Assembly (NCBI RefSeq): GCF_900188445.1
Contig: NZ_FZOR01000004.1
Location: forward strand, 62,001-126,000
Length of the DNA stretch: 64,000 nt
Direction of reading: 5' to 3'
DNA from: Actinomadura meyerae
GTDB taxonomy: Bacteria > Actinomycetota > Actinomycetes > Streptosporangiales > Streptosporangiaceae
A program made the translations under genes and the position numbers. Of the stretch, positions 27,783 through 61,872 are shown piece by piece (the first letter of the stretch is position 1; every line of letters begins with the position of its first letter). The notes below the pieces were generated by a model. It was not told the origin of the DNA. It ran no database searches and saw only the letters and a program-made list of their open reading frames with translations.

Positions 27783-28808
27783 ATGCCGATGAAGCCGCTC
27801 GAACCGTCCGATCCACGGATGATCGGCGGCATCGAGGTGCACGGCAGGCTCGGCCAGGGCGGGATGGGCACCGTCTACTTCGGGGTGACGCCGGACGCCG
27901 AGCAGGTCGCCGTCAAGGTGATCCGCGACGGCCTGACGGGCGACGGCATCCGGGAGAGGTTCGACCGCGAGGTGCTCGCGCTGGGGATGGTGCAGGGCCC
28001 GCGCGTCGCGGGCCTGGTGGCGGCGTCCGAGCCGGGCGCCGAGCCCCCGTGGCTGGCGATGGAGTACGTGCGGGGCGCGACCCTCAAGGAGTACCTGGAC
28101 GGCCGCCCCCTGCTCACGGCGGAGATGGGCGCGGTACTGGGCGTCCTGATGGCCGAGGCGCTCACCGAGATCCACGGGGCCCGCATCCTGCACCGCGACG
28201 TGAAGCCGGGCAACGTCCTGCTCGGCCCGGACGGGCCCAAGCTCATCGACTTCGGCCTCGTCGACCTGGCGGAGGCGGAGGACGGCCTAACCCAGACCGG
28301 CATGCGGCTCGGCACGCCCGTCTTCATGCCGCCCGAGCAGGTCGAGTCGGCGAAGGGCCTCACCCCGGCGGCCGATGTGTACTCGACGGGCGCCACGCTG
28401 CTCTACGCGCTGACCGGGCACTACCCCTACGCGCTGAAGGGCGGGCACGCCCTCTACAGCGCGATCATGAACCCCGAGCAGCGGCCGGACGTGTCGGGGC
28501 TGCCCGCGTCGCTGGCGCCGGCGATCGAGGCGATGCTGGAGCACGCCCCGGAGTCCCGGCCGACCCCGGCGGAGGCGTCCGCCGAGTTCTGCCGCGTGCT
28601 GGACGCCGCCGGCCTGTCGGTGAACGACGCCCGCGTCCATTTCGCGACGCTCACCTATATCGCGCGGCCCGACGACCCGCCGTCCGACATCGATCCGCCC
28701 CGGCGCCCCGCCCGCCCGCGGCATCGGGAGCACTCGGTGCCCCGCCCGGTCGTCGCCTCGCTCGCGGACCGGCTGGCCCTCGCCTACGCCCCCGGCCCCA
28801 CACTCTGA
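27783..28808 (+). CDS. Hanks-type Ser/Thr protein kinase
   Basis: 341 residues, a soluble kinase with no transmembrane segment. The Gly-rich loop is GRLGQGGMGTVYFG, the ATP Lys is in QVAVKVIRDG, the catalytic loop is ILHRDVKPGNVLL, the metal-binding motif is LIDFGLVD, and the activation segment ends GTPVFMPPEQ. All catalytic residues are present. The tail after the kinase domain is short and Pro/Arg-rich. The ATG at 27783 follows GGGAAGG. It lies about 60 bases upstream of the DrmD-like gene in the same direction and is probably part of the defence operon, as a regulator or sensor. Confidence 0.88.
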   Translation: MPMKPLEPSDPRMIGGIEVHGRLGQGGMGTVYFGVTPDAEQVAVKVIRDGLTGDGIRERFDREVLALGMVQGPRVAGLVAASEPGAEPPWLAMEYVRGATLKEYLDGRPLLTAEMGAVLGVLMAEALTEIHGARILHRDVKPGNVLLGPDGPKLIDFGLVDLAEAEDGLTQTGMRLGTPVFMPPEQVESAKGLTPAADVYSTGATLLYALTGHYPYALKGGHALYSAIMNPEQRPDVSGLPASLAPAIEAMLEHAPESRPTPAEASAEFCRVLDAAGLSVNDARVHFATLTYIARPDDPPSDIDPPRRPARPRHREHSVPRPVVASLADRLALAYAPGPTL

Positions 28809-43995: not shown

Positions 43996-44077
43996 GATGA
44001 GGCCGACGTTGGCGGCCGATGAGGTTCGGCGGAATGTGACGCAGTACCTCACGACGACGTTCGCGCTGGCGGACGAG
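43996..44077 (+). repeat. Right direct repeat: 5' end of giant helicase
   Basis: The intact counterpart of 39334-39414, starting at the helicase ATG. The two copies flank 4.6 kb of minus-strand genes. Similarity is about 93% over 82 bases and weak but visible for some 20 bases further upstream (GAGGGG-rich ribosome site region). Confidence 0.85.
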
Positions 44078-47000: not shown

Positions 47001-50000
47001 CCGGCCAGCTCACCCGGCCGCAGCGCGAGGACGTCGAACGGAGATTCCGCGACGGCACCCGCTACAGCGACCCGAACGTCCTGGCGTGCACCCCGACGCT
47101 GGAACTCGGCATCGACATCGGCGACCTGTCCGCGGTCGTCCTCGCGTCGCTGCCGCGGTCCCCGGCCAACTACGTCCAGCGGGTGGGACGCGCCGGACGC
47201 AAGAGCGGCAACGCCTTCCTGCTCACGCTCATCGGGCGCAACCCCCGCGACCGCTACTACCTGACCGACCCCACCGACATGATCGCGGGCGACATCGTCC
47301 CGCCCGGCTGCCACCTGTCCGCCGTCGAGATCCTCCAGCGCCAGTACGTCGCGCACCTCGCCGACCTCGCCGCCCGCGAACGCTTCGACGGGCTGCCGCC
47401 CATGCCGCGGCTCGCGTCCGCGCTGTTCGGCGAGTCCGGCTGGCTGACCGCGTTCCAGGACGCCGTCCTGCCCGAAGGCGACGCCCTCGCCGACGAGTTC
47501 CTCGCCCTGTTCGCCCAGGGCGACCCCGAGACCGGCGTCACCGAGGAAGCCGCCCGGCGGCTCCGCGACTTCGCCGTCACCGGCCTCAAGGACAGCATCG
47601 CCACCGCCGGCCGGATCTGGGACGAGCGGCTCGCCGACCTGCGCGCCCGCCTCGACGTCATCGACGCCGCCATCGCCGCGATGATCGACTCCGACCGGCA
47701 GCAGCGCACCCGCCGCGGCGAGCTGCGCGCCGAACGCCGCGCCGTCCAGGCCCGCATCGGCGAGATCGGCCGCGGCGACGCCCACGGCACCCTCGTCGAA
47801 CTCGGGCTGCTGCCCAACTACTCGCTCATCGACACCTCCACCGCGCTGGAGGCCACCCTCACCTGGGAGGAACGCGTCGGCGACGACGCGGACGAGGCGC
47901 CCGCCCCCGCCGACCGGCAGCGCCCCGACGGCGCGCGAAGCAACAGGACGCGCGGCGACCGGCGCTTCCACAGCGAACTCCGCGAATACGAGCGCTCCGC
48001 GTCCACCGCCCTCACCGAACTCGCCCCCGGCAACCACTTCTACATCCGCGGCTACCGCCACGAGATCACCGGCCTCGACATCGGCACCCCGCAGCGGCCC
48101 GCCTACCGGCAGTGGCGCGTCTGCCAGGAATGCGGCTACGTCCGCACCACCGCCGCCGCCGAGGACCACAGCCCCTGCCCCCGCTGCGGCAACGAGCGCA
48201 TCGGCGACAGCAGCGGCCTGCACACCGTCCTCGTCCCCACCCGCGTCACCGCCCACGACCTCCGCGACGACGCGCGCATCCGCGACGACCACGACGACCG
48301 GCAGCGCCGCTACTACGAGACCGCCGTCGCCGTCGACATCCCCAGCGACGAGATCGAGCCCGGCGCCTGGCGGCACGCCCGGCGCGTCTTCGGCGTCGAC
48401 TTCACCCGCCGCGCCGTCATCCGCCGCTTCAACCTCGGGTCGCTGCGCATGGACCGCCCCGCCGGCGACCCGTTCGCCGGAGAGCAGCGGCGGCTGAACC
48501 CGTTCCACGTCTGCCGGACGTGCGGCGGCGCCACCGCAGGCGGGCCGCCCGACCGCGACGGCGGCCCCACCGGGACCAGCTCCGGATACGACGCGTCCCC
48601 GAGCCACCACCGCCCCTGGTGCCCGCAGCGGCGCGGCGGCGACGTCGAGCACGAACCGCTGATCCTCGCGCACGAGCTGCGCACCGAGGCGCTGCGGATC
48701 CTCGTGCCCATCGCCACCACGATGATCCCCGAGCGGACCGTCACGTTCGAGGCGGCGCTGATGGCCGGGATCGCCCGCAAGTACGGCGGCGACCCGGCCC
48801 ACCTCCGGATCGCCATCGCCACCATGCCCGACCAACTGCACCACAGCGGGCACAAGCGGCGCTTCCTCGTCCTGCACGACACGCTGCCCGGCGGTACCGG
48901 CTACCTGCACCGCATGTCCACCGAGGCGGGCTTCCGCGAAGTGCTGCACGAGGCGTACGAGGTCGTGTTCAACTGCCCCTGCGCCAACGAGCAGGGCAAG
49001 GCCGCCTGCCACCGCTGCCTCCTCCGCCACGTCCGCGGCGAGGACTTCGACAAGGCCGACCGCGGCCTCGCCGTCGAGATGCTCGCCGAGCTCCTGGAGG
49101 ATTGGGAGACCGCGTCCGTCGCCAGCACCGACGACATCTCCCTCGTCAACCAGGTGGAGAGCGAACTGGAGGCCCGGTTCCTCGACGCCCTGATGCGGTG
49201 GGCGCGCAGGCCCGGCAGCGGCCGCGCTCTCAGCCCCGGCCCCCGGCTCAACGACCGCCGCACCGCCGACCTGCGCATCACCTCCGGCGACGACGTCGTC
49301 CACTGGCAGGTCATCCTGCAGAACACCATCAAGGAGACCCGGCCCGACGTCTACTTCAAACGGCTCGACGGCGCGCCCCTCGAAGTCGCCGTCTACCTCG
49401 ACGGCTACAACTACCACGCCGCCCCGCACGCCGGCCGGCTCGCCGACGACGCCGCCAAACGCGCCCGGCTCCGCGCCCACGGCCGCGTCGTCTTCCAGAT
49501 CACCTGGGACGACGTCGAACACTGGGAGAGCGGCCTGTTCCCCGAATCGCCCGCCTGGATCCCGTACCAGGGCATCGCGCAGGGACGCGCCCGGGAGGGC
49601 TACCTCAACGGCGGCGGCGACCCCGCCGAACTCGCCGACCTGATCTGGGCCAACCCGATCCAGACGCTGCTGGCCTTCCTGTCCGACCCCGACACCGGCC
49701 GCTGGCGGCGCCGCGCCGAAGCCGCCGTCACCGGCCTCGTCATGCCCGGCGCCGAGATGCGCCGCGCCGCGCCCGACGGGATCGGCGACCTGCTCACCGC
49801 CGCCGTCCGCGGCGACGACCTGCCCCAACCCCCGCCCGGCGACCTGATGCTCGCCCGCACCGCGGATGCCTCCGGCTGCCCCCTCACCGTCGTCGGCGAC
49901 CTCCGCACCCGCGCCTGGACGGCCCTCGCCGTCATCGACGACCGGACCGACGCGATCACCGCCGACGAGGACGCCCACCGCCGCCGCTGGCACGCCTGGC

Positions 50001-50638
50001 TGTACTGGGGGAACCTCCTCCAGTTCCTGTCGTACGGGGAAGGCGACGGCGTCCAGCTCGCACGCACCGACCTCTCCGCATTCGACCCCGCCGCGCTCGC
50101 CGTCACCGGCGGCGCGGGCCTGCTGTCGGTGCTCAGCCTGCTGCCGCCCGACGCCGACGACCTGCCGCCCGGCAGCGTCCCCGAAAGCCCCCCGGAACCC
50201 GGGCGCACCACACCCGACACGCACCCGCCGCTGGCACCCCGGGCGGGCGCGGCCCCGGCGGGCGCGTCCGGGGCGAGCGAGGTGACGGTACCGGCGAGTA
50301 CCGGGGGGTCCCCACCGGACGGCGGCTCCGCGCCGGACCCCGCCTGGGCCGAGGCGCTCGACCTGCTCGACCCCGACGAGCCTCGCCTCGCCGACCTGGC
50401 GCGCTGCCTGATGGCCCACGGCGTCCCAGCCCCCGAGGTCGGCTACGAACTGGGCGACCAGGCGTGGCAGGCCGAACTGGCCTGGCCGGACGCCAAGGTC
50501 GCCGTCGTCCTCGCGGGCAACGACGACGAGGCCACAGGCCGGTACCACGCCTACGCGAGGGCAGGCTGGGAGACCCGCGCGGCGGCCTGGTGGGACTGTG
50601 ACGAACTGGCGGAACGAATCAAGGCGGCGAACCCATGA
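43997..50638 (+). CDS. Giant DEAD/DEAH helicase with DUF1998 and nuclease-like C-terminus
   Basis: 2213 residues. Motif I is LITTGTGSGKTESFLIPVLD (near 100), then LLYPMNALATDQAQRL, motif II VVVDEFHTYDGAQGTD (near 223) and VATSATLGE. The second RecA domain has CTPTLELGIDIGDLSAVVLA and VQRVGRAGRK (near 1035-1070). Several zinc-finger-like cysteine sets occur (YCRHCGRSG, CPACGME, YCPVCNW, CQECGY/CPRCGN). DUF1998 runs to CPCANEQGKAACHRCLLRHV near 1660. Beyond it, RPDVYFKR...LEVAVYLDGYNYH (near 1785-1808) resembles a PD-(D/E)XK/Vsr-type core. Architecture fits Druantia DruE or a DrmA-DrmB fusion. GAGGGGG precedes the ATG and it is coupled (ATGA) to the UvrD gene. Expected role: unwinding and degrading foreign DNA. 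Confidence 0.87.
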   Translation: MRPTLAADEVRRNVTQYLTTTFALADEQVRDGLKSFLNHPEQGIFRGPYLRIRTPFRVEPDGWRGLLQWAPAGFVPYRHQAAAFRRLTTFNHRPEPTLITTGTGSGKTESFLIPVLDHCRRARAQGRTGVKAVLLYPMNALATDQAQRLNDYLQQPGLGDVTAGLYIGDTPETGYPRVYTQRAEIRRSRPDILITNYKMLDLLLQRADDLQLWEDADLAYVVVDEFHTYDGAQGTDVAMLLRRLASALGHSEPGRPLGRICPVATSATLGESGDGAEIRRVAEAVFGAPFGPDSVIGEDRQSTEEFIEEAGIDYTLPLPDPQELAAIRDPHGDDGAMGQIMQAVTGRDSLTPQELGSVLRQHILTSAVLEVLDGKPHTLGEILELLPRKGAYSWGTAIRLSPVNAATALARFVALLSEARDPQDPNRPFLHVETHLWVRSVTRLLRAVGPRPGFAWYGEAPPLDAETTITGGSREMLPAVYCRHCGRSGWAAISPERDPQDLVTDPVRVYRSGISEKRLVRPLITATRGEVEARAAGEKSGPNVLVLAANGRHIRPLDPEKDLENSAKADFRDVFVLADIAHNKESNRDAENDRCPACGMEQGTRFLGSGLAALASVAVTELFTGGQLQKQERKTLLFNDSVQDAAHRAGFVANRSFGFSLRLLLASQLDDAEGPKPLHELIADTVKEAGVPEYLPSVVPPDLHDRDDVDALLAGETEGSARTWTLIGERLAFSSVLEFGLRSRQGRTLELTRTVAAEVAVDDIDRIADLARDLQLAGPAALTGLPGHDTYVAYVRGLLERMRMRGAIKHHWLDAWIDGAGTKRYMTIWGKRPDGMPAFPRGLSAPRFVLGAPKNGSEFDGIAGRQSWFQDWTARCLGIEHGASGHYLSRLLDVLTGEDVIARRTAGDGATPVYGLRPGHVQVRKLDDDQVENAGVYCPVCNWQQTVHPDGLREWVEAPCPRYRCTGRLDTDTRRSDLYENDYYRGLYRSARPFSVITAEHTGQLTRPQREDVERRFRDGTRYSDPNVLACTPTLELGIDIGDLSAVVLASLPRSPANYVQRVGRAGRKSGNAFLLTLIGRNPRDRYYLTDPTDMIAGDIVPPGCHLSAVEILQRQYVAHLADLAARERFDGLPPMPRLASALFGESGWLTAFQDAVLPEGDALADEFLALFAQGDPETGVTEEAARRLRDFAVTGLKDSIATAGRIWDERLADLRARLDVIDAAIAAMIDSDRQQRTRRGELRAERRAVQARIGEIGRGDAHGTLVELGLLPNYSLIDTSTALEATLTWEERVGDDADEAPAPADRQRPDGARSNRTRGDRRFHSELREYERSASTALTELAPGNHFYIRGYRHEITGLDIGTPQRPAYRQWRVCQECGYVRTTAAAEDHSPCPRCGNERIGDSSGLHTVLVPTRVTAHDLRDDARIRDDHDDRQRRYYETAVAVDIPSDEIEPGAWRHARRVFGVDFTRRAVIRRFNLGSLRMDRPAGDPFAGEQRRLNPFHVCRTCGGATAGGPPDRDGGPTGTSSGYDASPSHHRPWCPQRRGGDVEHEPLILAHELRTEALRILVPIATTMIPERTVTFEAALMAGIARKYGGDPAHLRIAIATMPDQLHHSGHKRRFLVLHDTLPGGTGYLHRMSTEAGFREVLHEAYEVVFNCPCANEQGKAACHRCLLRHVRGEDFDKADRGLAVEMLAELLEDWETASVASTDDISLVNQVESELEARFLDALMRWARRPGSGRALSPGPRLNDRRTADLRITSGDDVVHWQVILQNTIKETRPDVYFKRLDGAPLEVAVYLDGYNYHAAPHAGRLADDAAKRARLRAHGRVVFQITWDDVEHWESGLFPESPAWIPYQGIAQGRAREGYLNGGGDPAELADLIWANPIQTLLAFLSDPDTGRWRRRAEAAVTGLVMPGAEMRRAAPDGIGDLLTAAVRGDDLPQPPPGDLMLARTADASGCPLTVVGDLRTRAWTALAVIDDRTDAITADEDAHRRRWHAWLYWGNLLQFLSYGEGDGVQLARTDLSAFDPAALAVTGGAGLLSVLSLLPPDADDLPPGSVPESPPEPGRTTPDTHPPLAPRAGAAPAGASGASEVTVPASTGGSPPDGGSAPDPAWAEALDLLDPDEPRLADLARCLMAHGVPAPEVGYELGDQAWQAELAWPDAKVAVVLAGNDDEATGRYHAYARAGWETRAAAWWDCDELAERIKAANP

Positions 50639-52836
50639 CCACGCAGGGCGAGGCCACGCTGCGGCTGCTCGACAAGGCCGACAAGGAGATCCAGAAGCTG
50701 CCGCGCGTCGTCAAAGGCGCGATCTACGAATTCCAGCACGACTTCCGCAAGAACCCCGACGCGCGGGGCCTGCGGCTCAAGCGGCTCCAAGGCCACGACC
50801 GGCTCTACTCCGCCCGGATCAGCGCCGAATACCGGGCACTGCTCCTGCACGCCGGCAACCGCGACTACATCCTCGTCGCCGTCCGCCACCGCAAGGACGT
50901 CTACGACAACCTCGACCGCTACCAGTACAAGATCAACGACGTGACGGGCGGGATCGAGTTCGTCGACCTCGTCAGCATCGAGGAGAACGTCACCACGCCG
51001 CCGCGCGCCGTGCCCGCGGCGGAACCGGCCGCGCCCGCGGAGGCGCCGCCGCTGTTCGCCGAGTTCACCGACGACCAGCTCCTCCAGCTCGGCGTCGCCG
51101 CCTCCCTGCTCCCGCTGATCCGGAAGATCACCACGGAGGAGGAGCTGCTCGGCCTCACCGAGCTCGCCCCGGCGCTCACCGAGGAAGTGCTCCTCGAACT
51201 GTACTTCGGCAGGACGTTCGACGAGGTCCTCGACAAGATCACCGCACCGGTCCGGGCCGAGGACGACGTCGACACCGAGGACTACGCCACCGCCCTCAGC
51301 CGCCCCGCCACCCGCGTCACCACGTCCGACACCGAACTGCGGGCCGTCCTCGAAGACGACTTCGGCCGCTGGAAGGTCTTCCTCCACCCGAGCCAGCGCA
51401 AGCTCGTCGAACGCGCCTACAAGGGCTCCGCCCGAGTCAGCGGCGGCCCCGGCACCGGCAAGACCATCGTCGCGCTCCACCGCGTCAAGCACCTCGTCGA
51501 CCGGCTCCCGCCCGGCGACGACAAACCCGTCCTGCTCACCACCTACAACAAGAACCTCGCCGCCGACCTGCGCAAACGCCTCCTCGAACTCGGCGGCCCC
51601 GAGACCGTGTCCCGGGTCGACATCGTCAACATCGACAAGCTCGCCGCCGACGTCGTCGCCCGCGCCGAACCCGGCGGCAAGCGCCGCTGGATCGACGACG
51701 CCAAAGCCGTCCAGGAATGGCGCGACCTGCTCCTCGAACTCGGCGAGACCCGCTGGGACCCCGAATTCCTGCACGCCGAATGGACCCACGTCATCCTCGG
51801 CATGGCCGGCAACTCCCGCACCGACTACTTCCGCACCCGCCGCCCCGGACGCGGACGCAGCATCGGCCGCGCCCAGCGCGCCGAGATCTGGCGGCTCGTC
51901 GAGAAGTTCCGGCTCCGCCTCGACGAGAAGAACCTGTGGACCTACCGGCAGGTCGCCGAACACGCCGCCCGCCTCGAACAGGCACGCGCCGAGAAGATGC
52001 GCCGGCACCGGGAGGGCGACCTCAACATCCACCGCGAGGACGCCTCCGTCGCCCGCCTGCGCCCCCGCTACACCCACATCGTCGTCGACGAGGCGCAGGA
52101 CCTCGCCGCCGCGCACTGGAAGATGCTCCGCGCCATGGTCCCCGAGGGGCCCGACGACATCTTCCTCGTCGGCGACGTCCACCAGCGGCTCTACGACAAC
52201 TACGTCTCGCTGAGCGTCCTCGGCATCAACATCCGCGGGCGCCGCTCCTCCCGGCTCACGCTCAGCTACCGCACCACCCACGAGATCCTCGGCTCCGCCG
52301 TCCGGCTCCTTGGCGAGGAGTCCTGGGACGACCTCGACGGCGAAACCGACGAACTCGGCGGCTACCGCTCCGTCCTGCGCGGCTCCCGTCCCGTCCTGCA
52401 CGGCGCGGCGACCTGGGAGGACGAGCAGGACCACATCGCCGCCACGGTCAGCGAGCTGATCGACGGGCCCGCGCCGTCCATCGCGATCAGCGTCCCGGAA
52501 CGCGCCATGGTCGCCGAGATGGAGGCCCGCCTCGCCCGCGCGGGCATCGCCGCCGCCTCCATCGGACCCGACGGGCCGCGCGTCGACGACGTCGTCCACA
52601 TCGGCACCATGCACCGCTTCAAGGGCCTCGAATACCAGCACGTGATCGTCGCCGGGGTCTCCGAGGGGCTCGTCCCGCAGTCCTACCTGCGCAGATGGGA
52701 GCAGTCGGACCCGGCCCGGTACCGGCGGGAACTCCAGCGCGCCCGGTCCCTGCTGTTCGTCGCCGCCACCCGCGCCCGCGACACCCTCCACATCACCTGG
52801 CACGGCGCACCGAGCCCGTTCCTGGGGGACCGGTGA
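50635..52836 (+). CDS. RelE/ParE-like domain fused to UvrD-type SF1 helicase
   Basis: 733 residues. Residues 1-95 look like a RelE/ParE toxin fold: LLDKADKEIQKLPRVVKGAI, GLRLKRLQGHDRLYSARISA and EYRALLLHAGNRDYILVAVR followed by HRKDVYDNL. A linker (100-240) leads to an SF1 helicase with Walker A RVSGGPGTGKTIVALHRVKH (near 268), motif II IVVDEAQDLAAAHW, motif III LVGDVHQRLYDNYV, then TLSYRTTHEIL, IGTMHRFKGLEYQHVIVAGV and LLFVAATRARDTL. All helicase motifs are intact. The ATG overlaps the giant helicase stop, so they are co-expressed. The N-terminal domain may act as an RNase or binding module; which one is unknown. Confidence 0.87.
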   Translation: MTTQGEATLRLLDKADKEIQKLPRVVKGAIYEFQHDFRKNPDARGLRLKRLQGHDRLYSARISAEYRALLLHAGNRDYILVAVRHRKDVYDNLDRYQYKINDVTGGIEFVDLVSIEENVTTPPRAVPAAEPAAPAEAPPLFAEFTDDQLLQLGVAASLLPLIRKITTEEELLGLTELAPALTEEVLLELYFGRTFDEVLDKITAPVRAEDDVDTEDYATALSRPATRVTTSDTELRAVLEDDFGRWKVFLHPSQRKLVERAYKGSARVSGGPGTGKTIVALHRVKHLVDRLPPGDDKPVLLTTYNKNLAADLRKRLLELGGPETVSRVDIVNIDKLAADVVARAEPGGKRRWIDDAKAVQEWRDLLLELGETRWDPEFLHAEWTHVILGMAGNSRTDYFRTRRPGRGRSIGRAQRAEIWRLVEKFRLRLDEKNLWTYRQVAEHAARLEQARAEKMRRHREGDLNIHREDASVARLRPRYTHIVVDEAQDLAAAHWKMLRAMVPEGPDDIFLVGDVHQRLYDNYVSLSVLGINIRGRRSSRLTLSYRTTHEILGSAVRLLGEESWDDLDGETDELGGYRSVLRGSRPVLHGAATWEDEQDHIAATVSELIDGPAPSIAISVPERAMVAEMEARLARAGIAAASIGPDGPRVDDVVHIGTMHRFKGLEYQHVIVAGVSEGLVPQSYLRRWEQSDPARYRRELQRARSLLFVAATRARDTLHITWHGAPSPFLGDR

Positions 52837-53336
52837 AGATCGGCGACCGCTACACGCGCGGCAGGCCCCTCGGCGTCGGCGGCATGGGGCAGATCTTCGA
52901 GGGCACCGACGACCGCCTCAACCGCCGGGTCGCCATCAAGGTCATCCGCCCCGGCCTGCCCGACCGCTCCGCCGCCCGCCGCCGCTTCTACCGCGAGGCC
53001 CGCATCCTCGCCCGCCTCCGCCACCCCGGCATCCCCGCCCTGTACGACTTCGGCGCCCACGACGACGATCTGTTCATCGTCATGGAGCTCGTCCCGGGCG
53101 CGGTAAGCCTCCGCGACCTCATCGCCGAACGCGGCGACGACCTCCTGCCCGTCCCTTGGGCCGCCCTCATCGGCGCCCAGTTCTGCGCCGCCCTGGCCGC
53201 CGCGACCGCCGCCGCCGTCGTGCACGCGCTGCTGCCGCACGTCCGCGACCTGCCCCCACTACCGGGCTACTACACCCCGGCCCCGGACGACCCGGCCCAC
53301 CTCTACGCCAAGGCCCTGTCCACCCTCACCGGCTGA
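52833..53336 (+). CDS. Truncated Ser/Thr kinase lacking the catalytic loop
   Basis: 167 residues, GTG overlapping the UvrD stop. The N-lobe is complete: GRPLGVGGMGQIFEGTDDRL, VAIKVIRPGL with the ATP Lys, YREARILARLRHPGIPALYD and FIVMELVPGAVSLRDLIAER. After GAQFCAALAAATAAAVVH, where HRDxKPxN should follow, the sequence goes to ALLPHVRDLPPLPGYYTP and a short tail ending LSTLTG. No HRD, DFG or APE motif is present, so it cannot be an active kinase. This looks like an in-frame internal deletion of about 130 residues in a once complete kinase. Whether it still acts as a binding protein is unknown. Confidence 0.8.
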   Translation: MKIGDRYTRGRPLGVGGMGQIFEGTDDRLNRRVAIKVIRPGLPDRSAARRRFYREARILARLRHPGIPALYDFGAHDDDLFIVMELVPGAVSLRDLIAERGDDLLPVPWAALIGAQFCAALAAATAAAVVHALLPHVRDLPPLPGYYTPAPDDPAHLYAKALSTLTG

Positions 53337-53353
53337 CCCACGAAAGGCGACGG

Positions 53354-54178
53354 ATGTCCGAAGGAAGGCTGCTGAGCGACGCGTCCATCGGTGCGATCGC
53401 GGACCTCGCCCGCTCGACGCCCGACGTCGAACGCGTCCTCGGCGACGCCGGCATCACACTGGAGGTGCTGCCGCCGGTCCGCGACCGGGGCGCGGTGATC
53501 GTCCCCAACGTCAGGCAGCGGCTGGTCAGGACACTCAAGGCACTCGACCTGGCGGACCGCTCCACGGTGAACTCGGTACTGGCCGCCGCGGCGAAACTCT
53601 CCGAGATCTACCAGAACGCGCCGAACGCCACTCCGGGGAGGCTCGCCCGGCTGCGCGACTGCCTCGCCGCCGACGGCTACCACGTCGACAAGGCGGGCGA
53701 CCCCATGGCCGCGATCCGCTCACTGGCCGACACCGCCGGGCGGGTACTCGCGGACGCGTCCGCGATCCGTGCCGAACTCACCCGCCTGGAACGCAACCTC
53801 GGCGCCGACCCCAGCCAGGACATCGGGGCGGCCAAGCGCCTGATCGAGTCGACCGCGAAGATCATCATCGTGCGGACGGGGGGCACCGTCCCTCGTAACG
53901 CGAAGGTGCCCGACCTGATCGACAGGGCGTTGACGAGCGTGGACACCTGGTCGACCAGTAAACACCGGAACATCCAAGAGATCTTGGGCAGCCTGAAGCA
54001 GGCGGCGATCGGCGTCAACAGACTGCGCAACAATGCGGGCGACGGGCACGGCGGTGTGACCGCCGTGACGGGCATCGACGACCGGGACAGCCGTCTGGCC
54101 GTCCGGGTCGCCATCGCCTGGTGCGCCTACGTCCTGGACTGCTTCGGCGACCTCCCCGCTCACTCGTCCGCGGACTGA
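53354..54178 (+). CDS. Abortive infection (Abi_C-type) family protein
   Basis: 274 residues, ATG after AAGG. The C-terminal third has the Abi_C pattern: KIIIVRTGGTVPRNAKVPDL, IQEILGSLKQAAIGVNRLRN and NNAGDGHGGV, ending in helices (RVAIAWCAYVLDCF). The N-terminal part (LSDASIGAIADLARSTPDVE; KLSEIYQNAPNATPG) is helical. The family is tied to phage-triggered growth arrest in several Abi systems and may be an RNA-targeting or binding fold; activity here is unproven. It is the last plus-strand gene of the run and overlaps the converging DUF262 gene by 19 bases. Confidence 0.8.
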   Translation: MSEGRLLSDASIGAIADLARSTPDVERVLGDAGITLEVLPPVRDRGAVIVPNVRQRLVRTLKALDLADRSTVNSVLAAAAKLSEIYQNAPNATPGRLARLRDCLAADGYHVDKAGDPMAAIRSLADTAGRVLADASAIRAELTRLERNLGADPSQDIGAAKRLIESTAKIIIVRTGGTVPRNAKVPDLIDRALTSVDTWSTSKHRNIQEILGSLKQAAIGVNRLRNNAGDGHGGVTAVTGIDDRDSRLAVRVAIAWCAYVLDCFGDLPAHSSAD

Positions 54179-56262
54179 AGCCGCCCCGACTGCCGCATGT
54201 ACTCCGACCTGAGAGCGGACAGGGGGCGCACCACGTCGTCGACCGGGGTGTGCCAGAATTCCCACCCGTTCGCCGTCGTCCCCAGGACGGCCGCCGCCGC
54301 GGCGGACGGGGACTCGTAGATCTCGCCCTCGATCTCGATGAAGCCCTCCGACGTCACCAGCGCCGTCGCGTTCTCACCGTCGACTCGGCGATCGACGAGC
54401 GTCGCGCCCACCTCGAGAACACCCCGCTCGACAAGGTCGGAGAGCTGCACCCCGTGAAAGGTCCGGCGAACCGGGATCCGCGCCTGCCCGTCGGGGGACG
54501 GATAGTCGGGGGAGTAGTCCGGGTCGCCGAGAAGCGTGAACGCGTCCCGGATCACTCGCGCCATTCCGGCCTGCCTCGCCGACAGGAAGTCCTGGTATCC
54601 CATCTCCTCCCAGCCGTCCGGCAGGGCGTGCAGATACCGCTGGCGAAGGAGCTCGTCCTCGGTGAGACCGGACGCCTCGACCTCTGCGGGCCAGAAACGC
54701 GCCGGGTCGTCCTCACCGGAGCCTCTCTTCCAGTCGACCAGGGTCATGTTCGCGATGCGGTTGCTCAGCTGCGCCCCGCCGATCTGACCGGCGCGCTGCA
54801 GATGCGCCCGCGGGAACAGGTGGTGCCGCCGGATGCCGTTCTTGCTGGTCTTCGCGGGGTCGAGGACCGTGCGCACGCTCGTCCGCGAGAGGAGCACCGG
54901 CGCGTCATGGATGTTGAGAGCGGCCAGGTAGGCGGACAGGCTCGGTGACTTCGACGCCGACGTCGCCAGCTCGTTCGGCAGCCCGATGTTCCAGAAGTCG
55001 TTGGTGAGGGTGGAGTCGATGACCCGGTCGAGGGCGGCGCAGAAGGCGTCCGCGTCCCCATCGGGGAGAGCGCCGAACATGGCGAAGTCCCGCTCGGCCC
55101 GCGTCTCGAACGTGCCCGAATAGCGGGCGGTCATGTGCGCCATGAAGAACCAGCGGGCGATCACCGACTCCAGCCGTCGCGCCGGCACGGCGAAACGGCT
55201 GTGGCCGAACAGCCAGATCGCATACGTGAACAGCACGGCGTTGTCGCTCGACACCATCTTCGCGCCGCGGAAACCCGCACGCTCCAGGCACTGCAAGAAG
55301 GCATGCCAGTTCCCGAGGTCGAGGACGTGGAACTGGGCCTCGGCCAGATTCGCGAACTGCTCGTCGCGGCTCATTCCCGGCCCGCTCTTGCCGCGGAGGA
55401 GCTGGTACACCTGCTTGAGGACCGCGCGCCGGAAGGCCAGCCCGACGCTGACGCGGAGGAGCTGGTCCGGCTGCGGCCGCAGATACCAGTTGAACGCCGT
55501 TTCGCCGTTGAAGGTCGGCTGCCTCGCACTCCGGCAGAACTCCTCCAGGTCGACGCGTCCCTTCTCCCAGAAGACGCTCATCAGCGTGAGGATGAAGTCG
55601 GCCTGGTTGAGCGTCACTCCCTCGCTGTTGATCCGGACGAAGATCTCGGCGACCTGCTCCTCGTCGATCGACCGGGAGAGCTCCACCACCTTGAAGGAGT
55701 AGTTCTTGAGATCGCGGCAGCGGTCCAGCGCCTCGGTGAGGTGGTCCTGCTCCTCCTGCGCAACCTCCCGGCGCGAGGACAGGCGTTCGATGAACTTCCG
55801 GACGATGCCGTGGAACCCGGGCTCGGTCCACAGGACGCTGATGTCGGGAATGAACTCGGGATCCTTCTCGATGGCCGCGTCGGTGACCTCGAATCTGCCG
55901 TCCGCCGGACGGAACGCGATGCGGATCCGGGTCCTGTCGTAGTTCTCGCGCAGGACGTCGATGCCCTTCATGACCGCGTAGAGGGAGGTGAGCCGCTGCT
56001 GACCGTCGACGATGAGGTTGCGCGGCACGGCGTCCCCGCTGCCTATCCGCCGCGCACCCGGCTCCGCGTCGGTCTCCCAGAACAACAGGAAACCGACGGG
56101 GAAGCCCTTGTACATCGAATCGAAGAGCGACCGCACCTTGGTCGCCTTCCACACGAAGGGGCGCTGAATGTCGGGAAGGGCGACGTCTCCGCGGTCGATG
56201 GCCTCGACGAGATGGGCGACAGAGTAGTCCGTGGTCCGGAACAGCATTGCAGTCACGATCAC
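54160..56262 (-). CDS. DUF262 - HNH - RAMA domain protein (GmrSD-like)
   Basis: 700 residues. The DUF262 NTPase part has VALPDIQRPFVWKATKVRSL and LIVDGQQRLTSLYAVMKG, the DGQQR motif of GmrS, and VRINSEGVTLNQADFILTLM. The DUF1524-like HNH site is IRRHHLFPRAHL near residue 477 with a later Asn-rich strand (SNRIANMTLVDWKR). The C-terminal 90 residues resemble a RAMA domain (VQLSDLVERGVLEVGATLVD; GEIYESPSAAAAAVLG), predicted to read modified DNA. GmrSD proteins cut modified phage DNA, so this may be a modification-dependent nuclease. The ATG at 56247 (MLFRTTDYS) is an alternative start. Its end overlaps the Abi_C gene. Confidence 0.87.
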   Translation of the reverse strand: MIVTAMLFRTTDYSVAHLVEAIDRGDVALPDIQRPFVWKATKVRSLFDSMYKGFPVGFLLFWETDAEPGARRIGSGDAVPRNLIVDGQQRLTSLYAVMKGIDVLRENYDRTRIRIAFRPADGRFEVTDAAIEKDPEFIPDISVLWTEPGFHGIVRKFIERLSSRREVAQEEQDHLTEALDRCRDLKNYSFKVVELSRSIDEEQVAEIFVRINSEGVTLNQADFILTLMSVFWEKGRVDLEEFCRSARQPTFNGETAFNWYLRPQPDQLLRVSVGLAFRRAVLKQVYQLLRGKSGPGMSRDEQFANLAEAQFHVLDLGNWHAFLQCLERAGFRGAKMVSSDNAVLFTYAIWLFGHSRFAVPARRLESVIARWFFMAHMTARYSGTFETRAERDFAMFGALPDGDADAFCAALDRVIDSTLTNDFWNIGLPNELATSASKSPSLSAYLAALNIHDAPVLLSRTSVRTVLDPAKTSKNGIRRHHLFPRAHLQRAGQIGGAQLSNRIANMTLVDWKRGSGEDDPARFWPAEVEASGLTEDELLRQRYLHALPDGWEEMGYQDFLSARQAGMARVIRDAFTLLGDPDYSPDYPSPDGQARIPVRRTFHGVQLSDLVERGVLEVGATLVDRRVDGENATALVTSEGFIEIEGEIYESPSAAAAAVLGTTANGWEFWHTPVDDVVRPLSALRSEYMRQSGRLQSADE

Positions 56263-56457
56263 CTACGCGTTCGATTACCGGGATGAGTCAACCCTAGGCG
56301 CAGGGGATGCCCGCCGCCGTCGCTTTGCGGAAGGGGCATGCCCGGCCGCCGGAGCATCGTCACATAAGGCGTGAATCCATCATTTACCCACATAGAGCCA
56401 GCAACCGTGTCGTATCGGTCAATCGTCGTCTTACTCGGTCGGACACGGGTGGTTCGC

Positions 56458-56470
56458 TACCATCTGCGCG
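56458..56470 (+). promoter_or_regulatory. -10-like element and probable leaderless start
   Basis: TACCAT (56458-56463) in an AT-richer stretch lies six bases before the GTG at 56470. Transcription would begin at or next to the start codon, so the mRNA is likely leaderless; no ribosome site is visible. A -35 is not clear. Confidence 0.4.
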
Positions 56471-57729
56471 TGCCTGCTTCAGAGTCCACCCGTCGAAGGC
56501 TGTTCGAGCGTGGTGGCGGCCGGTGCGCGATGTGCCAGCGCTCCCTGGTGATCGAGGCCACGCCCGGCGGCGCCGACTACCACATCGCCGAAGCGGCGCA
56601 CATCGTCGCGGAGAAGCCCGGCGGGCCCCGGGGCGCCGTCGATCGGCCCGCCGACATCGACGGCATCGACAACCTGGTGCTCCTCTGCCCGTCCGACCAC
56701 CGCATGATCGACAAAGGGGACGGGCGGCGGGTGTGGTCGCGCCGCAAGCTCCTGCAACTCAAACGCGACCACGAGTCGTGGACGGCCGTGCTCGCCAGTC
56801 GGCCATCGACTCCCGCCGCCGGCCGTCACACGCGGAGCGGGCCGCCGGGCCCGGGTGATGTCATCGTCGTGGACGGCGAACCGTACCGGCTCTGCGCCGA
56901 GCGCGCCGTCCACCGAGATGTCGCCGACCACACGGAAGGCGCCTACGAGACGGCCGTGCACTCCGGCGGGTCGGGCACCTGGTGCCAGGGGCACGTGTAC
57001 GGGGAGGGCGCGACTGAAGGACATGCCTGGCTGCGCAGGTCAGACGCCCCTCCGGGGACGGACGGCCTGCGGGCCGCACTCGCCGATGAGGCAGCGCTGC
57101 TCCTCGAACTGCCCCCTCACTCCGGCCTGCCGTCCTTGCTGGGCCTGGAGATGACACCGCAGACGATCAGCCTGGTCACGGCGATGCCGTCGCCCGTGAC
57201 GCTCCGCGACCGTCTCACCCGCACCCGGCCGCTGCCCTCACATGACGAGCTGACCTTGCTGGCGGGCGCACTTCCACGCCTCGGCGACGCGCTCGGGGCA
57301 CTGCACGACCGCGGCCTGTCCCACAGGGCACTGAGCCCCGGAACGATCCTGATGCCGGAACCGGGCACCGCCCTGCTCCGCGACCTCGGCCTCGCCGCGA
57401 CCGCGCCGCGGGCGGGGGAGAAGGACGACCTCCACCACGCGCCTGAACAGGCAGCGGGCGCCACGCCGCCCGGACCGCCCGCCGATGTCCACCGCCTGGC
57501 GCGCATCCTCTACGAGCTGATCACCGGGCGCCCCGCGGGTCGCCGCGGACGCCACGTGGCGCCCTCGGTGCTCAACCCGGCCGTCCCCGCCAGGTGCGAC
57601 GGCATGTTCCTCCGGGCGCTGGACGCTGACCCCGCGCGAAGGCCTCCCGTTCGAGCCTTCGTATCGAGCCTGCGGACGGCGATCGAGACCCCCGATGGGC
57701 GGCGCTCCTCCCCGGACCGCCGGTACTGA
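56470..57729 (+). CDS. HNH endonuclease fused to a pseudokinase
   Basis: 419 residues from GTG 56470. The HNH module (1-105) shows GGGRCAMCQRS (Cys19, Cys22), IAEAAHIVAE (His44) and DNLVLLCPSDHRMID (Asn68, Cys73, His77). Residues 150-400 are a kinase-like fold: ALADEAALLLELPPHSGLPS, LGALHDRGLSHRALSPGTIL and RDLGLA, with the catalytic Asp replaced (HRA for HRD) and DLG for DFG. PADVHRLARILYELITGRPA is the kinase F-helix region. It is therefore a pseudokinase that may sense a ligand or partner and control the nuclease. The frame opens at 56371, but the promoter position favours 56470. It leads a plus-strand operon with the SF1 helicase. Confidence 0.8.
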   Translation: MPASESTRRRLFERGGGRCAMCQRSLVIEATPGGADYHIAEAAHIVAEKPGGPRGAVDRPADIDGIDNLVLLCPSDHRMIDKGDGRRVWSRRKLLQLKRDHESWTAVLASRPSTPAAGRHTRSGPPGPGDVIVVDGEPYRLCAERAVHRDVADHTEGAYETAVHSGGSGTWCQGHVYGEGATEGHAWLRRSDAPPGTDGLRAALADEAALLLELPPHSGLPSLLGLEMTPQTISLVTAMPSPVTLRDRLTRTRPLPSHDELTLLAGALPRLGDALGALHDRGLSHRALSPGTILMPEPGTALLRDLGLAATAPRAGEKDDLHHAPEQAAGATPPGPPADVHRLARILYELITGRPAGRRGRHVAPSVLNPAVPARCDGMFLRALDADPARRPPVRAFVSSLRTAIETPDGRRSSPDRRY

Positions 57730-57766
57730 CACCCCCGACGCACAACGGCCGAAACGGAGTGGCGTG

Positions 57767-60706
57767 GTGCCCGACCACCAAGTCGACCTGCCAAGCGCGA
57801 TCCATCTCATCTCCTCGATGCGCTTCGTCGAGAAATTGGCGGAGCGGCGGGCCCGTTACCCGTTCCTCCCCGACGTGGAGGGCATCAGGAGTGATCTCAG
57901 CGAGATGGCGCACCGGGGACCGGTTCCGGCGCGGGTGAAGAGCGGGCAGGCTGACCGGAGCGCCTTCCTCGAGATCTACATCGACGGCCGGTACGTCCTG
58001 GCCCTCTACGCCAGGGAGCGCGGGAACGGATACTCGGTCAGCAACGCCTATCCCATGAACTTCGGGCACCACGACGACATCGTCCGCGGCGCGTTGCTCA
58101 TCCAGGCCCCGGCATGGATCTACCACGACCGGATCCAGGAACTGCCGTTCGACGCCGACGCCCACTGGGACCTCCTGCAAGAGCGGTGGCGGCTGCTCAA
58201 CCGGGGCGGTACCGCCCCGAGGACCGCCGAGCCCACGACGCCGAAAGCGCACGAGGAGTTCCTCGACGCCCTCGACGCCGTGATCGAGAGTGGCCGCCGC
58301 GTCGAACTGGCCGCCGCCCGCACCGAAGGCATGATCTCCTACCGGCGGGTGGAGGCGTCCGCCGCGCGCCGCAGGTCCGCCCGGAGCGTCCACGACTTCC
58401 TGCTCACCGGAAGCCACCGCCCGCTCGTCGGCACCCGCCTGCACGTTCGCGGCGCGCCGGACCTGCGCGGACGCGTCGACCTTTTACGCGGCACCCTGAT
58501 GACCGTCCGCTTCGAACGCCCCGTGGACCTCGACGCGATCCCCCGGGTGGGCGCCTTCACCGAATCCCCCTCGACCATCCCGTTCGACCGGCAGGCGGAG
58601 GCGGTGCGCATGCTCCGCGACGGACACTCCGCGAACCCGCACCTGCTGGACGTCCTCGCCGCGCACCGGTTCCGGCCCTTCACCCCGTATGCGGCCGAGC
58701 CCGCCCGCGCCCTCGACGACAGCCAGCGATCGGCGTTCCGCAAGGCGCTCGCGGTGCCGGACGTCGGCCTGATCCTCGGGCCACCGGGCACCGGCAAGAC
58801 CCGCACGATCACCGAGATCGCCCGTGCGAGCGCGGCGAGGGGTGAACGGGTTCTCGTCACCTCCTACACCAACCGCGCCGTCGACAACGTGCTGCAGGAG
58901 TTGCCCACCGACCTGGTGGTACTGCGCGTCGGCCGGGAGGACGGCGTCACGCCCGGCTGTGAGCATCTGACACTGGAGGAACAGGCAGCGACGCTGCAGG
59001 GAGAGATCCTCCGCCGGACCGAGACGGCCTTCCGCTCCTACGCATCCGCCGAAGCGGATCAGGGCGAGGCGGCCGGCTGGTTGCGGCAACTGGACGCCTC
59101 GATCCATGCGCTGCACGAGGCGGAGGTCGACCAGCAGGAGGTCTCCGCCGCACTTCGGAGACGGTCCGACGAGCTCACCGCGCCGATGGACGAGCGGGCG
59201 CGCGACCTGAGCGCCGCCGCCGAAGAGCATCGTCGCGAACTCGCCGACCATGGTGCGTGCCTGGCCGCACTGGCCGACCGGCGCGAGCGCGCCGAGGCGA
59301 GGGCTCGCTGGCCGCTCATCGGTCCCCTGCTGCGGGGACGGGCGAACCGTCTCGCCGACGAGCATCGGCGAGGGCAACTCCATCGCGAGCACCTCGAGGC
59401 CACGCTCGACAGCGTCCTCCAGGACCGGGCGGCCGCCATCGAGGAGGCCCGGCGCATCCGCGAATCCTCGCCCGAGTTGTCGAAACTCCGCAGTGCGCTG
59501 GACGACGCGACGACCGAGGCCCATCGGCGTGCCCTGGCGGCGGCAGCGGACGCCGAAGAACTCCGGGCGCTGATCTACGGCGTCCCCGTCCCCGACCAGC
59601 CGGGCCCCGGCCTGCCCGAGCTGGACACGTTCCTTGAACTGGCCGCACGGGCCCTGGCCGTCATGCGCCGCCGCCTGGGCCTGCTGGCCGAATGGCGCGG
59701 GCATCTCGGCAGTCGTACCGAGCAGCTCTACCCGGAACTGATTCGCTACGCCGACGTGATCGGCGCGACCTGCATCGGCGCCGCCACCACCACCGCGCTC
59801 AAAGGGCTCGACTTCGCCCTCGCCATCGTCGACGAGGCCGGGCAGATCAGCACTCCCAACGTGCTCGTCCCCCTCGTGCGGGCGCGCCGCGCCGTCCTGG
59901 TCGGCGACCACAACCAGCTACCGCCCTTCGTCGACGAGCAGGTGGAGCGTTGGGCGCGACACGATCCCCGTGCGCACGGCCTCGTCACCAAGAGCGCCTT
60001 CGAGCTGCTCTTCCCCGGCGTACCCGAAGGACACCGCGAGATCCTGCGCTACCAGCGCCGCATGCCACCGGTCGTCGCGCGGTTCGTCTCCCGGCAGTTC
60101 TACAACGGTTTCCTGGAGTCGGACGTCGATCGCCCGCATCGCGACGCGCTCTTCGACTCGCCACTGGTGTTCGTCGACACCGCGGGCCTTCCCCAGCGGC
60201 GACGCCACGAACGCCGTCCCCGCCCGGACGAGCGCTGGGCCGATACCGGCTACGCCAACGACGCCGAGGCCGAGGTCATCACCGACCTCGTCGGCCACTA
60301 TGACGGGAGGGTCGCCGACTGGGCGGTGATCCTCCCCTACCAAGCCCAGGTCGGGCTGGTCACCGAGATGCTCGCCGGACGCATCGCCGACGAGGAGCGG
60401 GCGGCCGCCGGAGTCGGCACCGTCGACTCGTTCCAGGGCGGCGAACGCGACCTCATCGTCTTCGGATTCACCCGCAGCAACGCCAGGGGCGCCATCGGGT
60501 TCCTGGATGAGCTCCGCCGTGCCAACGTCGCGTTCTCCCGCCCCCGCAGGCTGCTGATCCTCGTGGGCGATTCCACGACCCTCATGCGCGCGGCCGACCC
60601 GGGTTTCCGGTCCATGGCCGAAGCGCTGCTCCGCCATGTCCACCACAACGGCGATTCGCGCGACGTCCGCGAGATCCGGCCGCTGATCGCACGACAGGAG
60701 GCATGA
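57767..60706 (+). CDS. SF1 (Upf1/DNA2-like) helicase
   Basis: About 979 residues. The N-terminal 330 residues are not recognised (FLEIYIDGRYVLALYARERG; RVDLLRGTLMTVRFERPVDL). Walker A is LILGPPGTGKTRTITEIARA near 337; a charged coiled-coil-like insert of about 200 residues follows; then motif II ALAIVDEAGQISTPNVLVPL, VLVGDHNQLPPFVDEQVERW, GTVDSFQGGERDLIVFGFTR and RRANVAFSRPRRLLILVGD. The helicase is intact. The GTG at 57767 has GGAG at seven bases; other starts are 57764 and 57695. It is coupled by ATGATG overlap to the next gene and preceded by the HNH-pseudokinase gene, suggesting a three-part defence unit. Confidence 0.87.
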   Translation: MPDHQVDLPSAIHLISSMRFVEKLAERRARYPFLPDVEGIRSDLSEMAHRGPVPARVKSGQADRSAFLEIYIDGRYVLALYARERGNGYSVSNAYPMNFGHHDDIVRGALLIQAPAWIYHDRIQELPFDADAHWDLLQERWRLLNRGGTAPRTAEPTTPKAHEEFLDALDAVIESGRRVELAAARTEGMISYRRVEASAARRRSARSVHDFLLTGSHRPLVGTRLHVRGAPDLRGRVDLLRGTLMTVRFERPVDLDAIPRVGAFTESPSTIPFDRQAEAVRMLRDGHSANPHLLDVLAAHRFRPFTPYAAEPARALDDSQRSAFRKALAVPDVGLILGPPGTGKTRTITEIARASAARGERVLVTSYTNRAVDNVLQELPTDLVVLRVGREDGVTPGCEHLTLEEQAATLQGEILRRTETAFRSYASAEADQGEAAGWLRQLDASIHALHEAEVDQQEVSAALRRRSDELTAPMDERARDLSAAAEEHRRELADHGACLAALADRRERAEARARWPLIGPLLRGRANRLADEHRRGQLHREHLEATLDSVLQDRAAAIEEARRIRESSPELSKLRSALDDATTEAHRRALAAAADAEELRALIYGVPVPDQPGPGLPELDTFLELAARALAVMRRRLGLLAEWRGHLGSRTEQLYPELIRYADVIGATCIGAATTTALKGLDFALAIVDEAGQISTPNVLVPLVRARRAVLVGDHNQLPPFVDEQVERWARHDPRAHGLVTKSAFELLFPGVPEGHREILRYQRRMPPVVARFVSRQFYNGFLESDVDRPHRDALFDSPLVFVDTAGLPQRRRHERRPRPDERWADTGYANDAEAEVITDLVGHYDGRVADWAVILPYQAQVGLVTEMLAGRIADEERAAAGVGTVDSFQGGERDLIVFGFTRSNARGAIGFLDELRRANVAFSRPRRLLILVGDSTTLMRAADPGFRSMAEALLRHVHHNGDSRDVREIRPLIARQEA

Positions 60707-61872
60707 TGAGGGATCCGCTCTACGACGCCGCCCGTGCCGTGGAGGACGCGGCCGCGATGCCCGGCACGACGCCCGTCCGCCTGCATCGGATCGCGCTGCC
60801 GCTGTTCGCCGTCGAGATCGACGCGCTCATCGAGGAACGCCAGCCGTACGACCTGCTCGACCGCTTCGTCGGCCGTGCCATCGCCGAGGCCGGGCTGCGG
60901 ACCGTGCCGGAGATCGCGGCCTTCCTCGGGCTGGACGAGGCGATGGTGGAACGCGTCCTGCGCTTCCTCGGTGGCGTGGGACACGTCGCCGGCCTTCCCG
61001 ACGGGAGCTACGCCCTCACCGACCTCGGCGCCCGGTCCGTCCGCGACGACACCCGCTACGTGCCCAAGCGCGACAGGCAGAAGCTCTACTTCGACGGAGT
61101 GCTCGGCGGCCCCCTCCCGGCCGCGTACTACGGGCGCAAGGTCGTCGTCTGGGACAGGGCGCAGGCCACCGAACAGAAGTGGCACCGCCTGATGAGCCAC
61201 GCGTGCGCCTTCCGCGAGGACGCCTTGCAGCGCCTCGCGGAGCGCCCCGACCGGCGGGACTTCAACGTCCCGGACGAACTTCGCGAGGTCGCCTTCCGCG
61301 CCCTCGACCACGCGTACCTTCCCTGCTACGTGATCCGCACCCGGACCTCGGGCGGGCCGTCCCTGCTGGCGTACTCCGCCGTCTCCGACACCCACGACGA
61401 GCATCTGGGCCGCCTCTGCCTCGGTTGGCCCGCACTGACCGGCACCCTCGACGCGGGTGACTCCAGCGACGTCCGCGCCGAGTTCGGTGGCTGGCTCGCC
61501 GAGCGCGACATCGACCCGGCCCAGCTGCGATGGACCGACGCAGGGACCCTGCGTCTCACCCTTCCCGCCACCCGCTTCAGGGCTCATACTGCGGCGGACG
61601 GCCGCAAGGGAACCTTCCCCTTGGTCCGCCTCGGCTCCTATGTGACAGCCCGCAGCCACGTACTGCAACTGTGGTGCGATGACCCCCGCCTGCGCCGCGC
61701 GGCCATCCTTGAGCGTGCGCTAAACCGCGTCACCGCGTCTAGGAAGCTCGGTGCCGCCGAGGCCGAAGACTTCCTCGCCCGTCTCAGCGTCCAGTTGGAG
61801 ACGTCCCCCGTCACGCTCGATGACCTTCGCCGTCACGCCTACCACAGCGGGGAGATTCCCTTGCCCTTCTGA
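60703..61872 (+). CDS. Unknown protein with N-terminal winged-helix-like region, partner of SF1 helicase
   Basis: 389 residues not recognised as a named family. Residues 40-115 look like a winged helix (PYDLLDRFVGRAIAEAGLRT; VPEIAAFLGLDEAMVERVLR; then SYALTDLGARSV). The rest is mixed alpha/beta (PLPAAYYGRKVVVWDRAQAT; AYLPCYVIRTRTSGGPSLL). The ATG overlaps the helicase stop, so the two proteins are made together and probably form a complex. It might bind DNA and load or regulate the helicase. No catalytic motif is evident. Confidence 0.75.
   Translation: MMRDPLYDAARAVEDAAAMPGTTPVRLHRIALPLFAVEIDALIEERQPYDLLDRFVGRAIAEAGLRTVPEIAAFLGLDEAMVERVLRFLGGVGHVAGLPDGSYALTDLGARSVRDDTRYVPKRDRQKLYFDGVLGGPLPAAYYGRKVVVWDRAQATEQKWHRLMSHACAFREDALQRLAERPDRRDFNVPDELREVAFRALDHAYLPCYVIRTRTSGGPSLLAYSAVSDTHDEHLGRLCLGWPALTGTLDAGDSSDVRAEFGGWLAERDIDPAQLRWTDAGTLRLTLPATRFRAHTAADGRKGTFPLVRLGSYVTARSHVLQLWCDDPRLRRAAILERALNRVTASRKLGAAEAEDFLARLSVQLETSPVTLDDLRRHAYHSGEIPLPF

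Follow-up and report, generated by a model that had tools for sequence, protein, structure and literature searches.

The stretch analyzed here (the window) comprises 64,000 nucleotides of Actinomadura meyerae (contig NZ_FZOR01000004.1, positions 62,001 to 126,000). The subject of this report is a trio of genes at 56470-61872, all on the plus strand, which encode an HNH nuclease fused to a degenerate kinase (gene 1), a helicase (gene 2) and a winged-helix protein (gene 3). The list of open reading frames (ORFs) confirmed these genes where the original prediction, made from the sequence alone, had placed them. The G+C content at third codon positions is 86-89% in each of the three genes, as expected for coding sequences.

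Gene 1 (56470-57729) encodes 419 amino acids (aa). Its start is most likely the GTG at 56470, because the conserved block of two homologous loci, L017 and L019, begins there. Gene 2 (57767-60706) encodes a UPF1/SMUBP-2-like superfamily 1 (SF1) helicase of 979 aa. The frame is open from an ATG at 57695, and the GTG at 57767 is the probable start. The proteins from L017 and L019 start with the block that follows this GTG in the window, and all three are then 979 aa in length. Because the homologues support this start, gene 1 is probably separated from gene 2 by a gap of 37 bp instead of overlapping it. Gene 3 (60703-61872), identified by its PADLOC match and its predicted model, encodes an MkoB-like winged-helix protein of 389 aa. 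The overlap of the last two genes noticed originally is real and is 4 bp long (ATGA). The frames are closely coupled at the related loci as well; a start codon with this 4-bp overlap of the gene-2 stop occurs in 31 of the 37 operons described below.

The HNH effector domain is encoded at 56491-56799, as indicated by PADLOC, the PDB and the residues of homologues, and His44, Asn68 and His77 are present. It matches the PADLOC model SAVED_HNH (3e-24) and the PDB entries 9om4 (3e-17) and 7rwk, a "SAVED domain-containing protein" (4.7e-14). No paper on structure 9OM4 was found in the literature search. The SAVED-HNH-type effector is taken here to be the CBASS effector Cap5. In the genus, gene 1 was searched against the best-listed places of 65 genomes, with up to 26 candidates scored per genome. 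At E <= 1.2e-17, matches were obtained in the 11 genomes with a full-length gene 3, plus one match to HNH only. This single HNH-only match is an HNH-NB-ARC-TPR protein (G006, L090:5193-8072), which has an NLR-like, immunity-type architecture. One kind of HNH effector domain thus occurs on SAVED proteins, on an NB-ARC protein and on the pseudokinase of gene 1.

The remainder of gene 1 (56845-57687) is a pseudokinase, as indicated by alignments, the predicted model and Foldseek. The match to Pkinase (7.3e-7) is slightly below the Pfam curated cut-off, and the predicted fold matches kinases (Foldseek, 1.2e-10). A contig search with gene 1 recovered one distant kinase match, on a myxococcal contig, with 33% identity over residues 277-388. 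In the window, the beta3 Lys is replaced by Arg (near 57034), HRD by HRA (near 57322) and DFG by DLG (near 57382), the last with its Asp kept. Judged by its residues, the catalytic site is dead across the 37 gene-1 proteins. The beta3 Lys is lost in all of them (Arg in 36, His in one; the position is equivalent by motif), the catalytic-loop Asn in 36, and the HRD Asp in 35, with only L020 and L021 retaining it as HGD. The loss of the catalytic Asp claimed in the original prediction is therefore genuine. The claimed loss of DFG is not; DLG retains the metal-binding Asp and the Gly, each of which is present in 36 of 37 proteins. The sole exception (L072) is a gene 1 broken in two frames at that very site. 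The loss of the beta3 Lys is a stronger mark of inactivity than DLG, and it is possible that the pseudokinase still binds a nucleotide.

Gene 2 was assigned by family matches, homologue starts and motifs. It matches AAA_11/AAA_12 in Pfam, proteins of the UPF1/SMUBP-2/DNA2 types in the PDB, and the NCBIfam family PLuB (1.2e-44). No paper on PLuB was found in the literature searches. Walker A (GPPGTGKT) and Walker B (VDEAGQ) are intact in the window, and were detected in 34 and 35 of 36 gene-2 homologues, respectively. A second UPF1-like helicase region is present in the same genome outside the window (G000:C105:13223-16195), in a frame of 1312 aa that matches the MkoA profile (2.7e-79).

Gene 3 was modeled with a predicted local distance difference test score (pLDDT) of 84.8. 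A MarR/DtxR-like winged helix is located at residues 46-117 (60838-61053), with a VIA Z score of up to 12.8. Foldseek recovered the winged helix alone, without any match at E <= 0.001. VIA scarcely tests the protein beyond residues 46-117 and says nothing for a new fold in the remainder.

The three genes form a conserved unit, as originally proposed. Wherever gene 3 is uninterrupted (36 loci), the trio is complete and in the order of the window, although the locus of genome G010 is split over two contigs. With L085, whose trio includes a gene 3 that runs in two frames, these make up the 37 operons counted here. The gene-3 loci L062, L080, L084 and L087-L089 (partial), L079 (in two frames) and L027/L028 (canonical Mokosh or partial) were left out.

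While the pseudokinase is constant across the 37 gene-1 proteins, their N-terminus differs. Ten carry the HNH domain, 16 an LmuA-like restriction endonuclease (REase), four a PNP domain, one a TIR domain and four a short stretch with a GD motif; the other two are singletons. Eleven of the 37, including the protein in the window, were typed by direct scanning and the others by blastp clustering of the N-termini. The REase type matches PADLOC LmuA (up to 1.7e-47) and also Avs2, with Mrr_cat below the threshold; it presumably resembles Mrr and Cap4. The PNP type matches PNP_UDP_1 (5e-32) and the TIR type matches TIR_2 (6.5e-31). The active sites of the effectors are intact. The His/Asn/His of HNH is present in 10 of 10 proteins and the D...QxK of the REase in 16 of 16, and the single TIR protein retains the Glu of SAEW, which is assumed to be the catalytic Glu. 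Selection has maintained the active sites of helicase and effector while the kinase site decayed.

Both singletons and the GD-motif type show features of their own. The N-terminus of L057 (L057:6631-8112, minus strand) is helical with a weak match to T2SSF (0.0076), and is possibly a membrane-acting effector. That of L058 is short, without a recognised effector, and contains a repeat that by eye resembles bacterial amyloid signaling motifs. In L023-L026, all of the short GD-motif type, a gene for a BTAD/SARP-type regulator precedes gene 1 (BTAD 2.2e-19 in L024, at L024:8617-9897 on the minus strand). By tblastn this regulator is confined to these four among the oriented loci searched. In L024-L026 a GD-repeat motif, seen by eye, is common to the C-terminal tail of the regulator and the N-terminus of gene 1. 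The shared repeat suggests a homotypic, possibly amyloid-like, coupling instead of a fused effector.

The history of the exchange was examined with an IQ-TREE tree of the helicase and gene 3 (1394 columns). The trees cover 34 of the 37 operons, without L060, L085 and the G010 locus on two contigs. HNH loci constitute one group (100/100). The TIR locus is nested in the REase group, where the starred branches force two changes. The seven N-terminal types require six changes on this tree, the minimum possible. The tree of the kinase part recovers the same groups, and the kinase of the TIR protein is nearest to the kinases of its REase-bearing neighbors. Sequence identities of the kinase part and those of the helicase and winged-helix protein are correlated over the 34 loci (r = 0.904, attained in 0 of 2000 permutations). 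As the kinase tree tracks the tree of its partners, it is the N-terminus that was exchanged, on a stable chassis of kinase, helicase and winged helix with a shared history.

HNH as the defining feature was rejected, as 27 of the 37 loci have another N-terminus; since the pseudokinase gene persists in these 27, HNH is one interchangeable part. It had been reasoned beforehand that the unit would be in doubt if the helicase and its partner were widespread without the HNH gene and the HNH gene also occurred outside defense. The outcome is divided. The pair does occur without HNH, at the same 27 loci, but the pseudokinase gene is still present there. For the second point, the HNH-only match among the best-listed places in the genus sits on the immunity-type protein described above. 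What holds is that a nuclease is linked with a helicase and with a winged-helix protein in the three-gene unit, the degenerate kinase being the joint.

The same observations bear on a direct restriction complex, in which the helicase and the winged helix find foreign DNA or R-loops, HNH degrades the target, the host survives and the pseudokinase is a scaffold. The intact helicase motifs, a winged helix of the DNA-binding type and the closeness of HNH to SAVED-HNH proteins, which are DNA endonucleases, are consistent with it. TIR and PNP, however, occupy the same position and degrade no target strand; these families act on NAD or nucleotides of the cell. Direct restriction is considered unlikely. 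Because TIR or PNP can replace HNH, a general alarm with cell shutdown is favored over cleavage of a target strand.

The original prediction could not name a system for the trio. That view was overturned by the relation to MkoA and MkoB of Mokosh type I, the nearest known system, which also removes an unnameable system from the candidates. Gene 3 matches PADLOC MkoB (1.6e-18) at residues 28-186, a match that covers only about the first 170 of 610 profile positions, and MkoB was matched in 23 of the 24 gene-3 homologues scanned. The PADLOC MkoA profile matches gene 2 (1.1e-106) and, at its positions 50-282, the kinase part of gene 1 (8e-11). The region before the helicase in gene 2 (residues 184-452) aligns with the canonical MkoA of genome G017 (1.7e-13). 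This genome, of the same genus, has a canonical Mokosh pair (L027), with a fused MkoA (8e-229) that contains VALK, HRD and DFG, and an MkoB (5e-57). In PMC10925250, MkoA is classed as SF1_Upf1. Both systems encode, in one order, a kinase fold, an SF1 helicase of the UPF1-like kind and a protein with an MkoB-type winged-helix N-terminus, and the kinase and the helicase of the trio are the counterpart of a split MkoA. The case for kinship with Mokosh rests on the gene order, the pre-helicase region in common and the match to MkoB.

The trio differs from Mokosh type I in its separate kinase and helicase genes, its dead kinase and the additional effector domain on the kinase. The fusion of kinase and helicase, assumed from the layout of the PADLOC profile and from prior knowledge to define MkoA, is present in the canonical L027, whereas kinase and helicase are encoded separately both in the window and at the related loci. 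A frameshift splitting a fused MkoA in this genome was thus ruled out as the explanation. Mokosh presumably needs kinase activity. By its residues the trio is not predicted to encode a competent Ser/Thr kinase, whereas L027 retains the beta3 Lys and the HRD Asp. PMC10952713 lists both PLD and NERD under Mokosh type I. No PLD was found by Pfam in gene 3, nor in the canonical comparator L027, and alignment A1 contains no invariant HxK. As both the fusion and an active kinase are missing, the trio was not filed as Mokosh. It is a distant, Mokosh-related variant rather than a member, with a fair chance of being a class of its own.

Comparison with CBASS systems of the SAVED type shows another relationship. 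The HNH domain matches SAVED_HNH models and structures of SAVED-domain proteins, and occupies the same N-terminal position; in the trio, the pseudokinase replaces SAVED. The SAVED domain is absent from gene 1, whose C-terminal part is predicted to be a kinase fold, and the best SAVED_HNH model was matched at positions 7-112 of 368. HNH-SAVED presumably corresponds to Cap5 and REase-SAVED to Cap4, the latter being the one to which the REase type is likened. No CD-NTase cyclase was detected by Pfam in the trio or among the 18 scanned ORFs of the window, to which the search was confined.

Such likeness raises the possibility that the pseudokinase is a small-molecule receptor, in which a nucleotide in the old ATP pocket frees the effector in a SAVED-like manner, the signal being produced or regulated by the helicase. 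In PADLOC, HNH and PNP match "Effector" or SAVED_HNH models and the REase type matches the Lamassu protein LmuA, and the metal-binding Asp of DFG is retained in 36 of 37 proteins. The retained Asp alone is no proof of binding, however, the beta3 Lys is lost in 37 of 37, and the three-gene unit includes no nucleotide cyclase. A receptor of this kind is improbable.

A constant core with a swappable effector is also shared with the STAND/NLR receptors, such as Avs, Lamassu and the HNH-NB-ARC-TPR protein of G006, and the REase is common to LmuA and Avs2. Such swapping of effectors is characteristic of immunity by CBASS, Lamassu, Avs and NLR proteins. The trio has no STAND NTPase switch, and its constant core is made of three chains: helicase, winged helix and pseudokinase. 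Pfam detected no NB-ARC or NACHT in the three proteins, and nSTAND matched the P-loop of the helicase only below the cut-off. A third comparison is with Hachiman, by analogy only. The anatomy of the trio suggests a model in which a helicase sensor restrains a nuclease until infection or damage. In PMC10925250, HamAB is a nuclease-helicase complex with an SF2 Ski2-like helicase and another nuclease. HamAB differs from the trio in this helicase, in its nuclease and in having no kinase fold. In the literature searches, no paper with the architecture of the trio was seen among the matches listed; preprints are little covered by these searches, and absence from print is not established.

Taken together, it is rather likely that the trio is a modular anti-phage operon, probably acting by abortive infection, which is related to Mokosh type I and in which the pseudokinase relays to an exchangeable effector. 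The three proteins may form a complex, with the helicase as the sensor, the pseudokinase gating HNH, and phage defense as the outcome. The helicase and the MkoB-like winged-helix protein would be the constant part that surveys nucleic acid. When a phage signal arrives, the helicase would alter the pseudokinase, a constant and catalytically dead relay. The pseudokinase would then license HNH, inactive until infection, to cut phage DNA, host DNA or both and thereby stop the infection. For the pseudokinase, the role of relay or adaptor is more likely than that of the sensor proposed originally.

A further step would be to regard the three-chain chassis as an undescribed class of modular immune receptors, for which the chances are about even. 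The pseudokinase would play the role of SAVED or STAND: it would receive the signal and license an effector that plugs in. Possible plug-ins would be HNH, LmuA-type REase, PNP, TIR, or the amyloid-type or regulator coupling. If so, the kinase-fused Mokosh is either the ancestor or a derived form that retained phosphorylation. In eukaryotes, pairs of a UPF1-like helicase and a kinase have a central part in RNA surveillance. Effector swapping on a helicase/pseudokinase core would represent a new bacterial route from nucleic-acid surveillance to cell killing. The role of the Mokosh kinase domain also becomes a testable question. The existence of a natural series in which the kinase is dead and the effectors are intact suggests that the core job of this domain may be allosteric relay, not phosphorylation.

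The distribution of gene 3 is patchy. In the genus, 16 of 65 genomes show a match, of which 11 are full-length and five are weak or partial (L012-L016); among the latter, that of G017 (L015/L027) is the canonical Mokosh. In the family, 26 of 341 genomes have a match, which is full-length in 20. Matches were also found in 12 of 35 genomes of a second family (seven of 13 in one of its genera) and in five of 392 genomes of a genus of a third family (four full-length). Sixteen of 394 genomes in the class sample have a match, and only one of 396 in the phylum sample, which is the genome of the window itself. These samples overlap and the wider searches scored limited candidates per genome, so that the counts are lower bounds. 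Full-length gene 3 was met in three families of one class only. Gene 3 showed no match in phages (E 1e-5) or in plasmids (1e-8), and gene 2 showed none in plasmids at the limit of 1e-40.

The confinement to three families of one class, as found, and the lack of phage and plasmid matches would fit a non-defense function in actinomycetes, such as DNA repair, plasmid maintenance or a toxin-antitoxin-like addiction module. The patchy presence, seen in 26 of 341 family genomes with 20 full-length, speaks against it, and the effector repertoire, the MkoB relation and the defense-like neighbors in the window point to conflict. A function outside defense is very unlikely.

Several observations weigh against a conserved, Mokosh-related operon with an exchangeable effector. 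The HNH part of gene 1 was modeled with low confidence, and six of the 37 gene-1 proteins have no recognised effector. The exchange is old and infrequent in the sample, because the types are clustered and the changes minimal (six for seven types). A profile comparison by hhalign of 24 gene-3 proteins with one canonical MkoB gave a probability of 10% and an E-value of 0.003 over residues 45-239. Of 14 control genomes, 13 also give a match to the MkoA profile. Within the genome of the window, 48 of the 50 MkoA matches listed fall in its kinase part, and gene 1 is absent among them. The link between the kinase part and MkoA is thus weak alone, as the profile is unspecific in both the control genomes and this genome.

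Some loci show gene 3 outside an intact operon, which also counts on this side. In L079 (G1384), a nearly whole gene 3, broken in two frames, has neither gene 1 nor gene 2 within 9.3 kb, of which about 5.6 kb is upstream. Six more partial gene-3 loci lack gene 1 (L062, L080, L084, L087, L088 and L089), of which L084 is a contig of 4.4 kb and uninformative about this absence. A 35-residue scrap of gene 2 remains in L080, and a distant helicase match in L089. L079 and these six apparently resemble decaying operon copies. In four of the 37 operons, one gene is split over two frames or does not run complete in a single frame: gene 2 in L060 and L068, gene 1 in L072 and gene 3 in L085.

The surroundings of the trio in the window are probably a defense island, judging from the predicted proteins. 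Upstream of gene 1, a divergent intergenic region of 207 bp (56263-56469) is presumed to contain the promoter, and no sigma-70-type match was found in it. It separates the trio from a divergent gene for a GmrSD_N protein that ends in a RAMA domain (54160-56262, minus strand), followed by an Abi_C/AbiJ-like protein (53156-54178). The region at 43997-52836 encodes a DruE-like DEAD helicase of 2213 aa with an MZB domain (PADLOC 3e-95), then a UvrD-type helicase. Further upstream are two more probable defense genes, for a Ser/Thr kinase (27402-28808) and for an Eco57I/PglX-like methyltransferase of 1674 aa (31644-36668).

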